A stretch of DNA of 42,497 nt from Gemmatimonadaceae bacterium (lineage in GTDB: Bacteria > Gemmatimonadota > Gemmatimonadetes > Gemmatimonadales > Gemmatimonadaceae): positions 1-42,497 of the forward strand of contig JANJUF010000114.1 of NCBI GenBank assembly GCA_024710705.1. Direction: 5' to 3'. The notes beneath the pieces are model-generated. The model was not told the DNA's origin, did not search any database, and worked only from the letters and a program-made list of their open reading frames with translations. Shown piece by piece: positions 1,462-19,129 of this stretch (its first letter is position 1; every line of letters begins with the position of its first letter). Made by a program: the position numbers and the translations under genes.

Positions 1462-1526
1462 CCCTTCCCCCCTCGCGCGCGGATGCGTAGCTTCGCCTCA
1501 GCCCTCCCCATCAGCCCCGACGAGAC

Positions 1527-1754
1527 ATGCCACAGCCCGCGAAGAAGCTCCGCAAGCAGTACGTGAACAACGACTTCCCGACGGCCGTGCTCCGGTTCGA
1601 AGACGGACACGAGATCCAGATCAAGCGTGGGACGGGCAAGGCCTTCGACTGCTATGCGGGCGAGAACGTGAAGATCCTCGCCGTGTTCGATCCGGATGCG
1701 CGGGAGCGCGACCTGATGGACACGAAGCGCGCCGACGACTTCGACGACGCGTGA
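1527..1754 (+). CDS. Small conserved-looking hypothetical protein (75 aa)
   Basis: ATG at 1527, 75 residues, no recognised domain. The sequence begins with a basic stretch (PAKKLRKQY), has a compact predicted beta-rich middle (AVLRFEDGHEIQIKRGTGK) and an acidic C terminus ending DDFDDA. No signal peptide or membrane segment is seen. It lies 65 bases after the kynureninase-like gene and 13 bases before psuG, so it is probably cotranscribed with psuG. Codon use matches the neighbours, which supports a real gene. Function unknown. Confidence 0.6.
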   Translation: MPQPAKKLRKQYVNNDFPTAVLRFEDGHEIQIKRGTGKAFDCYAGENVKILAVFDPDARERDLMDTKRADDFDDA

Positions 1755-16229: not shown

Positions 16230-16308
16230 GGCGAAAAGGGTGAGGAAGACGGTTCCGCCCGCTAATGACCAGAAACACGACACTGCGTCGCTTTTCGCCA
16301 GAACCGTC
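16230..16308. promoter_or_regulatory. Crossed inverted repeats in the acs upstream region
   Basis: GGCGAAAAG (16230-16238) pairs with CTTTTCGCC (16291-16299), and GACGGTTC (16248-16255) pairs with GAACCGTC (16301-16308). The two pairs interleave (A-B-A'-B'), so in RNA they would form a pseudoknot or two alternative stems; in DNA they could be nested operator sites. The region from 16309 to 16390 is AT-richer than the genes and probably holds the promoters of both divergent units. Confidence 0.4.
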
Positions 16309-16390
16309 GCAGCGCGCAAGCAGTTTCGAAATCATCACCCTGTGATATGAACATAAGTCGTTCAATAGCAACACTTAGAAGGCGGCCTTG

Positions 16391-16408
16391 CTGGCACACA
16401 TCTCGCCC
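16391..16408 (+). promoter_or_regulatory. Possible sigma-54 promoter for the riboswitch-STAS transcript
   Basis: CTGGCACA followed by TCGCC gives the GG-N10-GC spacing (16393-16394 and 16405-16406) required at -24/-12. The -24 element is 7 of 8 to consensus; the -12 element has a TTGC to TCGC mismatch. The start would fall near 16418, just ahead of the riboswitch. Confidence 0.35.
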
Positions 16409-16425
16409 TAGAGGTGGGCAGGCGT

Positions 16426-16519
16426 GCAGTTCGCCACACCGACAAGAGCAAACCCATCGCGAGTTGGGGACGCAAAGCCAGGAGTCTCGGAATCCGAGAT
16501 CGTCCGGTTGCCGAAGTGC
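16426..16519 (+). ncRNA. GEMM-I (c-di-GMP-I class) riboswitch aptamer with A at position 20
   Basis: The conserved core aligns base by base with the V. cholerae Vc2 aptamer: AGAGCAAACC (16445-16454), then a 16-base hairpin arm with GCGA tetraloop (16453-16468, one U-U mismatch), then GGACGCAAAGCC (16468-16479), and finally GGTTGCCGA (16506-16514). The second arm contains TCTCGG-AAT-CCGAGA (16485-16499) closed by GGA/TCC. An outer stem can form between GCAGTTCG (16426-16433) and CGAAGTGC (16512-16519) with one mismatch. The position equivalent to G20 is A447 (16447); A47 is 16474. A20 marks the GEMM-Ib subset that senses 3',3'-cGAMP in Geobacter; ligand choice here is therefore uncertain. It lies about 125 bases upstream of the STAS gene on the same strand. 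Confidence 0.8.
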
Positions 16520-16555
16520 AATGAAGGCGTGGGACGGGATCCCACGGGCAACCGG
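16504..16555 (+). promoter_or_regulatory. Riboswitch expression platform with mutually exclusive stem
   Basis: CCGGTTGCC (16504-16512), the 3' strand of the ligand pocket, is perfectly complementary to GGCAACCGG (16547-16555). Between them is a 7-bp hairpin, CGTGGGA (16528-16534) / TCCCACG (16540-16546). The 9-bp stem cannot coexist with the closed aptamer. There is no U-run after it, so whether it stops transcription or acts in another way is not clear. Confidence 0.65.
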
Positions 16556-16645
16556 ATGGAACAGCTCCAGGTGGGTCGGTCTGGCACTTCCCTGCACCCG
16601 GGAGATCGCATGACGGCCGTTCCGCTCACCACTCAGGAGTCCCAT

Positions 16646-16936
16646 ATGTTCCCCCTTGTCGCCCCACCGCGTCTGACCGCCGAGCACCGCCTTGAGTTCC
16701 GGCGAGAGGCGCTCGAGATGTTGGAGGCGGCAGTTCGGACGGGCGCGTCCGTCGTCGAAGTGGATCTCAGTGCCTTGGTCGAGATTGACGCATCGGGGCT
16801 CGGAGTCCTCATCCTGCTCCAGAAGCGCGCCCGCGAAGCCGGGCTACGAACCCGTCTGCTACGGGTGCCCGGCCTGGTGACGGCGCTGCTCGAGTCCACG
16901 CGGCTGAATCTGCTGTTTGATTACGACGCCACCTGA
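16646..16936 (+). CDS. STAS-domain protein (anti-sigma factor antagonist-like)
   Basis: 96 residues from ATG 16646, with GGAG at 16636-16639; an in-frame ATG at 16610 would add 12 residues not belonging to the domain. The protein is a single STAS domain: VVEVDLSALVEIDASGLGVL carries the conserved phosphorylatable serine (S50 in DASGLG), followed by the helix LLQKRAREAG and strand LRTRLLRV. Such SpoIIAA/RsbV-like proteins bind anti-sigma kinases or similar partners and are switched off by serine phosphorylation. No kinase or sigma factor lies next to it. It is the only gene after the riboswitch before a terminator, so it is the probable riboswitch-controlled target. Confidence 0.88.
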   Translation: MFPLVAPPRLTAEHRLEFRREALEMLEAAVRTGASVVEVDLSALVEIDASGLGVLILLQKRAREAGLRTRLLRVPGLVTALLESTRLNLLFDYDAT

Positions 16937-16940
16937 ATCC

Positions 16941-16972
16941 ACGGCGGGCGCGCGCTTGGCCGCGTCCGCCGT
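16941..16972 (+). terminator. Hairpin terminator after the STAS gene
   Basis: ACGGCGGGCGCG / CGCGTCCGCCGT, 12-bp arms with a single G-U pair and an 8-base loop, five bases downstream of the STAS stop. Only a short T pair follows. Confidence 0.6.
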
Positions 16973-17032
16973 TCCACTGGGGCGCGTGGGGCAGTAGCCT
17001 TCGGGCATGTTGCGTCCCCCGAATTGCGTTCC

Positions 17033-17731
17033 GTGACCCCGCTGCTCGAGGCCGCCGCGCTGACGCGGACGTTCGGAGCTCGCCGCGCCGTGGATGGGGT
17101 GAGCCTCGCCCTCGCCGCCGGCGAGGCACTGGCGCTGTTCGGGCCCAACGGCGCAGGCAAGACGACGCTGCTCCGGCTACTGGCCGGCCTCCTCAAGCCC
17201 GGCGCGGGATCGGCGCACGTGGCCGGCCAGCCCCTGCCGTCCGTGCCGGCGCGCGCACGCGTCGGGTTGATCTCGCACCGCACGATGCTCTATGACGCCC
17301 TTTCGGCGCGCGAGAACGTGCGCTTCGCGGCGCGCCTGCACGCCCTGCCCGACGCCGCCGGCGCCACGCAGAGCGCGCTCGAAGCGTTGCGGGTTGCCGA
17401 CCGAGCCGACGTGCCGGTGCGAGCCCTGTCACGCGGTCTCCAGCAGCGGGTGGCGATCGCCCGCGCCGTCGTCCACTCCCCCGACGTGATCCTCGCCGAC
17501 GAGCCCTACACCGGGCTCGACGAGCAGGGCAGTGCGGCACTCACGGCCTTGCTCCGCGAGCGCCGTGTGGCCGGCGCGGCGCTGGTGGTCGTCACGCACC
17601 ATCTGCAGGAGGGGCTGGCGGTCGCCTCACACGCCGCCATCATGCGGCAGGGTCGCTTCGTCCGGCAGGAGGCCACGGATGGCCTCGACGCCTCCGTGTA
17701 CGCGGCCACCTATCGCGAGCTGGTTGCATGA
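17033..17731 (+). CDS. ccmA: Heme exporter ATP-binding protein CcmA
   Basis: 232 residues from GTG 17033; TTG 17024 is an alternative that adds three residues. Walker A is GPNGAGKTT at 37-45, the signature is LSRGLQQRVAIARA, Walker B is VILADEPYTGLDE and the switch histidine is in VVTHHLQE. The short length and the following ccmB and ccmC identify it as CcmA, the ATPase of the CcmABCD complex. That complex releases heme-loaded CcmE for cytochrome c maturation in the periplasm. It overlaps ccmB by ATGA. Confidence 0.9.
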   Translation: MTPLLEAAALTRTFGARRAVDGVSLALAAGEALALFGPNGAGKTTLLRLLAGLLKPGAGSAHVAGQPLPSVPARARVGLISHRTMLYDALSARENVRFAARLHALPDAAGATQSALEALRVADRADVPVRALSRGLQQRVAIARAVVHSPDVILADEPYTGLDEQGSAALTALLRERRVAGAALVVVTHHLQEGLAVASHAAIMRQGRFVRQEATDGLDASVYAATYRELVA

Positions 17732-18420
17732 ACACCGCGCCGCCGGGACTCCTCGCCGCCGCCTGGCTAATTGCCCGCAAGGACCTCGCCATCGAGTTCC
17801 GCACCCGCAGCGCCTTCCTCTCAGCGCTGGTGCTCTCGTTGCTCTCGCTGGTCATCTTCTACTTCGCCTGGGACCCCACCGCGGTGGCCGCACTCGACGT
17901 CGCGCCCGGCATCCTCTGGGTGACCTTCACCTTCTCCGGTCTCCTCGGCCTCCATCGCTCCTTCGGAGTGGAGGCGCAGGAGCGGGCCATGGACGCCCTG
18001 CTCGTCGCGCCGGTCCCGCGCGAGTCCATTTTCCTTGGCAAGGCATTCGCGAACCTCGTCTTCGTGCTCGGCGTCCAGCTGGTGGCGCTGCCGGCGTTGG
18101 CCCTGTTCTACAACCTGCCGTTCGGCACGGTCGTCAGTTCGCTCGCGCTCGTGATGGTCTTGGCGGCCATCGGCCTGGTGTGCGTCGGCACCCTGTTCGC
18201 CGGCATCACCGCCAACACGCGAATGGCCGAGCTGCTGCTGCCCGTGCTGGCGCTGCCGTTCTTCGTGCCGATCGTGCTGCCGGCGGCGACGGCCACGGCG
18301 CGCTTGCTCGCCGGACGGCCACTCGCCGAGAGTATGGCCTGGCTGCGCATCCTGCTCGCGTTCGACCTCGTCTTTCTTTACGCTTGCACCATCGCCTTCC
18401 CCTTCACGCTCGAAGACTGA
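17728..18420 (+). CDS. ccmB: Heme exporter permease CcmB
   Basis: 230 residues from ATG 17728, overlapping the ccmA stop. Six membrane segments are visible, and the family signature FSGLLGLHRSFGVEAQERAMDALLVAPV with the following ESIFLGKAF is intact. CcmB is the membrane partner of CcmA in the CcmABCD complex. The N-terminal LIARKDLAIEFRTRSAF segment is also typical. Length matches the family (about 220-230). Confidence 0.93.
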   Translation: MNTAPPGLLAAAWLIARKDLAIEFRTRSAFLSALVLSLLSLVIFYFAWDPTAVAALDVAPGILWVTFTFSGLLGLHRSFGVEAQERAMDALLVAPVPRESIFLGKAFANLVFVLGVQLVALPALALFYNLPFGTVVSSLALVMVLAAIGLVCVGTLFAGITANTRMAELLLPVLALPFFVPIVLPAATATARLLAGRPLAESMAWLRILLAFDLVFLYACTIAFPFTLED

Positions 18421-18424
18421 TCGG

Positions 18425-19129
18425 ATGACCTCAACCCCCTCAGCCCGCGCCCGCGCCGGCATCGACTGGTTCGCCCTCGTGGCCATCGTCGCCATGGGCG
18501 CCGCGTTCGTGCGCGCCATCGTCTTCACCCCGCCGGACCGGTTGCAGGGCTTCGCCCAGAAGATCTTCTACGTGCACCTGCCGTCTGCCTGGGTGGCGTT
18601 CCTCGCGTTCGGGCTCACCGCCATCGCCGGTGGCGTCTGGCTCTTCCTCAAGGATCCGCGGCTCGACCGCTTCGCCGAATCGTCGGCGGAAGTGGGCGTC
18701 ATCTTCACCACCGGCGTGCTGATCTCCGGGCCCCTCTGGGGCAAACCGATCTGGGGCGCTTGGTGGGTGTGGGACGCGCGGCTCACGCTCACGCTCTTCC
18801 TGTGGTTCCTCTACCTCGGCTACCTCGTGCTCCGGAGCGCGGTGGATGACCGCGAGGCCCGCGCCCGTTACTCCGCGGTGGTGGGAATCCTCGGCGCGCT
18901 ACTCATCCCGTTCATCCATCTCAGCGTCTACATCTTCCGCACGCAGCATCCCACCCCAATTGTCGCCAACCCCACCGGCATCCAGATGCCCGGCGTGATG
19001 ATCACCACGCTCTTCCTGGCGCTGGGCGCCTTCACGTTACTGTATGTCGCCCTGGTGCGCGCCCGGATGCGCCTCGCCAGCGAGCGTGACGCGCTGCTCG
19101 ACCAGGCCGCCGCGGAGTCCACGCCGTGA
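18425..19129 (+). CDS. ccmC: Heme exporter/heme-handling protein CcmC
   Basis: 234 residues from ATG 18425, five bases after ccmB. The periplasmic tryptophan-rich motif is WGAWWVWDARLT (WWVWD at 113-117). Heme-ligand histidines are H51 in YVHLPSAW and H165 in FIHLSVYIF, matching the two axial histidines of CcmC. Six helices are visible. CcmC loads heme onto CcmE. The stop shares its last A with the ATG of the short downstream gene (TGATG). Confidence 0.95.
   Translation: MTSTPSARARAGIDWFALVAIVAMGAAFVRAIVFTPPDRLQGFAQKIFYVHLPSAWVAFLAFGLTAIAGGVWLFLKDPRLDRFAESSAEVGVIFTTGVLISGPLWGKPIWGAWWVWDARLTLTLFLWFLYLGYLVLRSAVDDREARARYSAVVGILGALLIPFIHLSVYIFRTQHPTPIVANPTGIQMPGVMITTLFLALGAFTLLYVALVRARMRLASERDALLDQAAAESTP

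Follow-up and report, generated by a model that had tools for sequence, protein, structure and literature searches.

The riboswitch aptamer and its ligand-contacting positions

The 42,497-nt stretch of Gemmatimonadaceae DNA analysed here (the window) raises the question of which cyclic dinucleotide is sensed by an RNA of the GEMM-I (c-di-GMP-I) family that carries an adenine at a ligand-contacting position normally occupied by guanine. The genome to which it belongs comprises 3.0 Mb in 137 contigs and is about 88% complete. A cmscan of the window gave a single gathering-level match, to RF03167 (c-di-GMP-I-GGC) at 16438-16516 on the plus strand (60.0 bits against a cut-off of 59, E 7.6e-12, full model aligned), the tool having dropped a weaker clan member's hit that overlaps it. 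With RF01051 (c-di-GMP-I), which matched none of the 14 control genomes searched, the aptamer lies at 16437-16515 (63.3 bits against a cut-off of 35, E 5.5e-12). A reading made from the sequence only had placed a GEMM-I aptamer at 16426-16519; the covariance score confirms its presence, in a slightly narrower span (16437-16516, combining both models), and the core is composed as that reading had it: AGAGCAAACC, a 16-nt GNRA (GCGA) hairpin, GACGCAAAGCC and GGTTGCCGA. The P3 stem is short and lacks the tetraloop receptor. By model match and motif content, 16437-16516 on the plus strand is a genuine GEMM-I/c-di-GMP-I aptamer with the standard three-way junction.

Vc2 numbering places A18 at 16445, G19 at 16446, A20 at 16447, G21 at 16448, A47 at 16474 and C92 at 16511. 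Base 16447, two bases 5' of the first C in GCAAACC, is indeed an A where standard c-di-GMP-I aptamers have G, and the standard bases are kept at the equivalents of A47 (16474) and of C92 and C93 (16511-16512), all on the plus strand. The RNA thus shares with RF01051 the junction, the GNRA hairpin, A47 and C92, but has A20 for G20 and a shorter P3, G20 being a property of standard c-di-GMP recognition and not of the Rfam model. The roles of G20, A47 and C92 in ligand recognition are treated in PMC9049102, and the structures used for these contacts in PMC6274999, PMC9049102 and PMC7288161. By analogy with these known structures, one guanine of the cyclic dinucleotide would pair with C92, A47 would be sandwiched between the two bases of the ligand, and the second base would be in contact with A20.

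Membership of the Rfam c-di-GMP-I-GGC variant class, whose name presumably refers to G20 and G47, is very improbable. RF03167 is the best match by E-value and has the short P3 in common with the window's RNA, but its consensus shows G both at position 20 and at position 47, where this RNA has A in each case, the score is only 1 bit above the cut-off, and RF01051 gives more bits. The model itself is not strict on position 47, since all 35 aptamers read outside the Gemmatimonadaceae have A47 and many of them score above its cut-off.

Two readings of the ligand remain in close competition. According to a figure legend in PMC6456294, an A20G change in a Geobacter aptamer switches its selectivity from cGAMP to c-di-GMP, which upholds the earlier statement that Geobacter A20 aptamers select cGAMP and favours this ligand here as well. 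The window's RNA resembles the Geobacter GEMM-Ib cGAMP riboswitch, as described, in combining A20 with A47 and C92, but differs in belonging to another phylum, in preceding STAS and ccm genes and in that no Hypr GGDEF was found in its genus. In a cGAMP riboswitch of the Geobacter kind, A20 would read the adenine of 3',3'-cGAMP and C92 its guanine, the synthase being missed or neither Hypr nor SMODS; we give this reading a substantial chance, if short of an even one. Our slight lean goes to an A20-subtype GEMM-I switch in a sigma-54-type leader, with a STAS gene first, that would read c-di-GMP with altered, probably lower, affinity. This falls just short of an even chance but makes c-di-GMP the most likely ligand, with cGAMP close behind.

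Probable promoter and downstream genes

The sequence TGGCAC-N5-TCGC at 16392-16406 on the plus strand fits the -24/-12 consensus and spacing of sigma-54 promoters. The window holds one exact copy of this pattern against 0.32 expected, and 28 of 100 shuffles contain one; because such a single match is not rare by chance, the case for this promoter rests on its conservation in related leaders. TGGCAC is present in 25 of 26, lying 45-51 bases 5' of the aptamer in 24 and 81 bases in one. RpoN was found in the window's genome, and the leader is probably sigma-54 driven. No sigma-70 site and no plus-strand terminator-like site were found in 16250-17050. A pattern with an N4 spacer and one mismatch allowed was discarded (7 matches against 10.4 expected, and the wrong spacer). 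The transcript start is predicted at about 16418, which would make the aptamer the first element of the transcript. Moreover, a palindrome, ATCAC-CCT-GTGAT (16334-16346, no strand assigned), is a candidate activator site: by eye, TCACN3GTGA recurs about as far upstream of the promoter in 22 of the 24 leaders from the window's genus (g1) and genera g13 and g20, and may be an activator site of the riboswitch transcript.

The aptamer lies in a 5' leader and ends 94 nt before the start, at 16610, of a gene for a STAS-domain protein of 108 aa (16610-16936, plus strand, alternative start 16646; PF13466, 46.2 bits against a cut-off of 29.2), which is the presumed regulated gene. It is followed on the same strand (17024-19129) by genes for an ABC ATPase (whose position and the gene order make it CcmA-like), for CcmB and for a cytochrome c assembly protein, and these ccmABC-like genes are possibly co-transcribed with it.

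Distribution of A20 in the genus and family

A search with RF01051 recovered 16 aptamers in 9 of the 17 genomes of g1. All 16 carry A20, in two contexts corresponding to two subtypes, indicating that A20 is a maintained variant and no accident; this speaks for cGAMP as the ligand. The nine members of subtype A, the window's included, share a short P3 and carry a GCGA hairpin, or in one case GTGA. In all nine a STAS gene comes next and after it, with frames assigned by eye, a CcmA-type ABC ATPase. Subtype B has seven members, with a GAAA hairpin and A20 in every one, and includes the second aptamer of the window's genome (L002, contig C16:37551-37643, minus strand). The genes that follow subtype B aptamers in g1 have lipoprotein-like starts, and Big_2 Ig-like domains were present in all four that were searched; the gene after L002 gives only a weak beta-helix match, below the cut-off. 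A20 throughout a separately derived subtype is a point against c-di-GMP.

Across 30 genera of Gemmatimonadaceae, the 137 distinct aptamers read (139 rows drawn from a total of 136 loci, of which L253 and L254 overlap) comprise 102 with G20, 33 with A20 and 2 with C20, in a sample biased to high-scoring matches with 25 genomes added for their weak ones. A20 accounts for 16/16 aptamers in g1, 11/11 in g13, 2/2 in g11, 2/3 in g35, 1/4 in g20 and 1/3 in g21, and the C20 aptamers belong to g14 and g35. For four A20 aptamers of subtype A character (L231 and L251 in G010, L241 in G067 and L250 in G051), the following 900 nt contain no STAS motif, so subtype A is not tied to one gene.

STAS-linked aptamers were found in 26 leaders of four genera, the window's included (9 in g1, 11 in g13, 4 in g20 and 2 in g35); 22 of these aptamers carry A at position 20, three carry G and one carries C. 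The three with G20 form one clade within g20 (support 98/95). On the STAS tree, in which 12 of the 23 inner branches are unresolved, the position-20 labels require two changes, the minimum possible. A20 is kept in 9/9 g1 and 11/11 g13 switches, even though the g1 STAS proteins are highly divergent, and such retention exceeds what tolerance of a costly change would lead one to expect if c-di-GMP were the ligand. Conversely, G20 or C20 precedes the same gene in four of the 26 leaders, so the regulon does not need A20, which weighs against cGAMP.

The same variety, with G, A and C all found in front of one gene, would suit a promiscuous or drifting aptamer in which position 20 is weakly constrained, both dinucleotides bind and A is historical. 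PMC9262584 describes position 20 as a selectivity factor and not a hard filter, and PMC6456294 reports one natural Geobacter riboswitch that responds to both ligands. Against this, every g1 and g13 aptamer read has A20, and on a tree of 60 aptamers A20 requires 7 changes against a shuffled mean of 20.2, none of 500 shuffles being as low. We consider promiscuity improbable. The 60-aptamer tree is built on 90 columns and leaves most of its forks open; its well-supported branches force at least 3 changes of A20. In this tree the seven A20 aptamers of g1 subtype B group, with support 100/100, with A20 aptamers from tandem leaders of two genomes outside the family (G167 and G336), whereas the window's subtype A falls outside that clade.

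Search for cGAMP synthases in Gemmatimonadaceae

Geobacter cGAMP is made by a Hypr GGDEF enzyme, and natural GGDEF proteins with Ser or Thr for Asp are reported to carry GGDE[F/Y] exclusively; according to PMC9140294 this type amounts to 0.17% of GGDEFs. In the literature consulted, cGAMP riboswitches are described from Geobacter, and Hypr enzymes more widely, for example from Bdellovibrio and as Cabther_A1065. The sequence-only reading had suggested a search for such enzymes, or for cGAMP-making CD-NTases. Of the nine GGDEF loci in the window's genome, one is degenerate and the other eight carry ND..GH..GD, a GNDVF signature occurring in one of the eight; the genome has no SMODS CD-NTase, SMODS being present in 2 of 16 genomes. 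In g1, 96 of 97 GGDEF loci (all but one, in G150) hold no Hypr type: 90 have Asp at the Hypr position, and the six others (three Ala, one Asn, one Ser and one Glu) are without ND..GH. Two g1 genomes that carry a subtype A switch and are listed as 100% complete (G023 and G110) have no Hypr GGDEF among all their listed loci.

Nine further genomes of the family gave the same picture: 64 of their 65 loci were fetched and 62 aligned, and the resulting 66 rows (61 Asp, 2 Glu, 1 Asn and 2 gaps) include no Ser or Thr. The Asn belongs to L354 (G051), the only such protein with an intact GGDEF motif, and it has NN..GR in place of ND..GH. Altogether, 158 of 162 GGDEF loci in 26 Gemmatimonadaceae genomes include no Ser/Thr type with an intact ND..GH motif, every row with that motif having Asp; G20-only genomes are represented among those read by G019 and G107. 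Among Hypr GGDEF and SMODS enzymes, the two sources searched for, no known source of cGAMP was found to accompany A20 in the family, which counts against cGAMP as the ligand. Since Asp-type GGDEF proteins are the only cyclic-dinucleotide synthases recognised in g1, c-di-GMP remains the most likely ligand.

Tandem leaders and Ser-type GGDEF proteins in a sister family

The phylum was searched with RF03167 in 298 genomes. The 35 aptamers read outside the Gemmatimonadaceae, all with A47, include five with A20, and two of the 13 outside loci with flanking sequence hold tandem aptamers. Both belong to family f2, of the same order as the Gemmatimonadaceae, and to two genera: L388 in G167 (1342-1431 and 1500-1591, plus strand) and L403 in G336 (1680-1771 and 1502-1591, minus strand). 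In each, the first aptamer is of subtype B with A20 and the second has G20. The first is followed by its own terminator-like hairpin (z -5.76 in L388 and -3.13 in L403), and the second ends about 20 nt before the start of a gene for a Big_2 Ig-like protein. An argument for a change of ligand from genome-wide concordance, all aptamers of a genome having A20, was abandoned because of these mixed leaders.

The same two genomes each encode a GGDEF protein in which Ser occupies the Hypr position and the GGDEF motif is intact (L449 in G167 and L460 in G336; signatures NDRHGHLSGS and NDRYGHLVGS). L449 is a MASE1-GGDEF protein, and the two are orthologous, with 59% identity over 437 residues including the MASE1 part. 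They are candidate cGAMP synthases. Among solved domains, those closest in sequence to this Ser-type GGDEF come from ordinary diguanylate cyclases and 6d9m, the Hypr structure from Geobacter, ranks tenth, so that it is the signature and not kinship that points to Hypr activity. In 30 of the 46 f2 GGDEF loci, from three genomes, 35 rows comprise 27 Asp, 4 Asn, 2 Ser, 1 Glu and 1 gap. An A20 aptamer (L417) is also present in the third genome, G299, where the 10 GGDEF loci read of 14 contain no Ser.

The tandem leaders, taken with the Ser-type GGDEF proteins, make the strongest case that A20 aptamers of Gemmatimonadota may recognise cGAMP, but this case comes from two related genomes and subtype B, not the window's subtype A. 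This combination with an A20 aptamer of the g1 type counts against c-di-GMP, and the 100/100 clade that joins g1 subtype B to the tandem A20 aptamers speaks for cGAMP; the position of subtype A outside this clade tells against cGAMP for the window's own switch. The suggestion that the lineage may make and sense cGAMP therefore survives in part: A20 is kept in 16/16 g1 aptamers and f2 has tandem leaders with Ser-type GGDEF proteins, but the family loci read hold no Hypr GGDEF, and G20 or C20 occurs in 4 of the 26 STAS-linked switches. A wider Gemmatimonadota circuit, in which A20 aptamers, the window's included, would sense cGAMP made in f2 by the Ser-type MASE1-GGDEF protein, tandem leaders would act as a two-input cGAMP/c-di-GMP gate (A20 on the terminator, G20 on the start codon) and the Gemmatimonadaceae synthase would be one not recognised, is a more doubtful proposal.

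A second phylum with conserved A20 aptamers raises the question of whether cGAMP riboswitches extend beyond Geobacter and its relatives, and the tandem leaders whether one leader can compare two cyclic dinucleotides. Should the A20 RNAs turn out to prefer c-di-GMP, they would be natural evidence that A20 alone does not make a cGAMP sensor. The tandem leaders and Ser-type GGDEF proteins are a more novel lead than the window's switch; among the literature matches listed, titles and abstract openings mention neither Gemmatimonadota riboswitches nor tandem c-di-GMP/cGAMP aptamers, and no ligand for the GGC class.

In addition, three f2 genomes each encode a GGDEF protein with Asn at the selectivity position, GHExGN and a GGDEF motif (L454, L455 and L456). 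A Pfam search of L454 shows the domain joined behind a ferredoxin and iron-hydrogenase-like N-terminal part, and the same fusion was noted for the other two.

Possible expression platforms

Downstream strands able to unfold the aptamer may form the platform of the window's switch. The strand GGCAACCGGA (16547-16556, plus strand) is a 10-nt perfect complement of aptamer bases 16503-16512 and a possible anti-aptamer strand: the predicted ligand-free fold uses it, and one of 60 shuffles has a complement as long, but it is not conserved in related leaders. A second strand, GTCGGTCTGGCACTTC (16575-16590, plus strand), complements both sides of the aptamer, 16575-16585 pairing with the 5' side at 16433-16443 (91%) and 16584-16590 with the 3' side at 16513-16519, and is a candidate part of the platform. 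Taken in full, the window's leader does not fold more stably than shuffled sequences (z -0.26). As there is no plus-strand terminator-like site, control at the translation start is our guess.

A conserved anti-aptamer platform in subtype A was considered and set aside, the tests on related leaders giving nothing convincing. Across 26 related leaders the longest complement has a mean length of 6.15 nt, compared with 5.96 nt in shuffled sequences; the best of 24 leaders in a Shine-Dalgarno hairpin test (L045) is equalled by 3 of 100 shuffles, and the best p in a 5'-side pairing test of 24 leaders is 0.045.

The platform of subtype B is clearer than that of subtype A. In 7/7 members the 3' strand of the aptamer is, by eye, complementary to the strand that follows, about four have a T-rich tail after the hairpin, and the L002 hairpin exceeds shuffled sequences in stability by a wide margin (z -5.23); ligand binding would block the terminator. 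A GGDEF gene (C16:37853-38314, minus strand) lies immediately upstream of L002, whose strong terminator-like hairpin shares the 3' strand of the aptamer.
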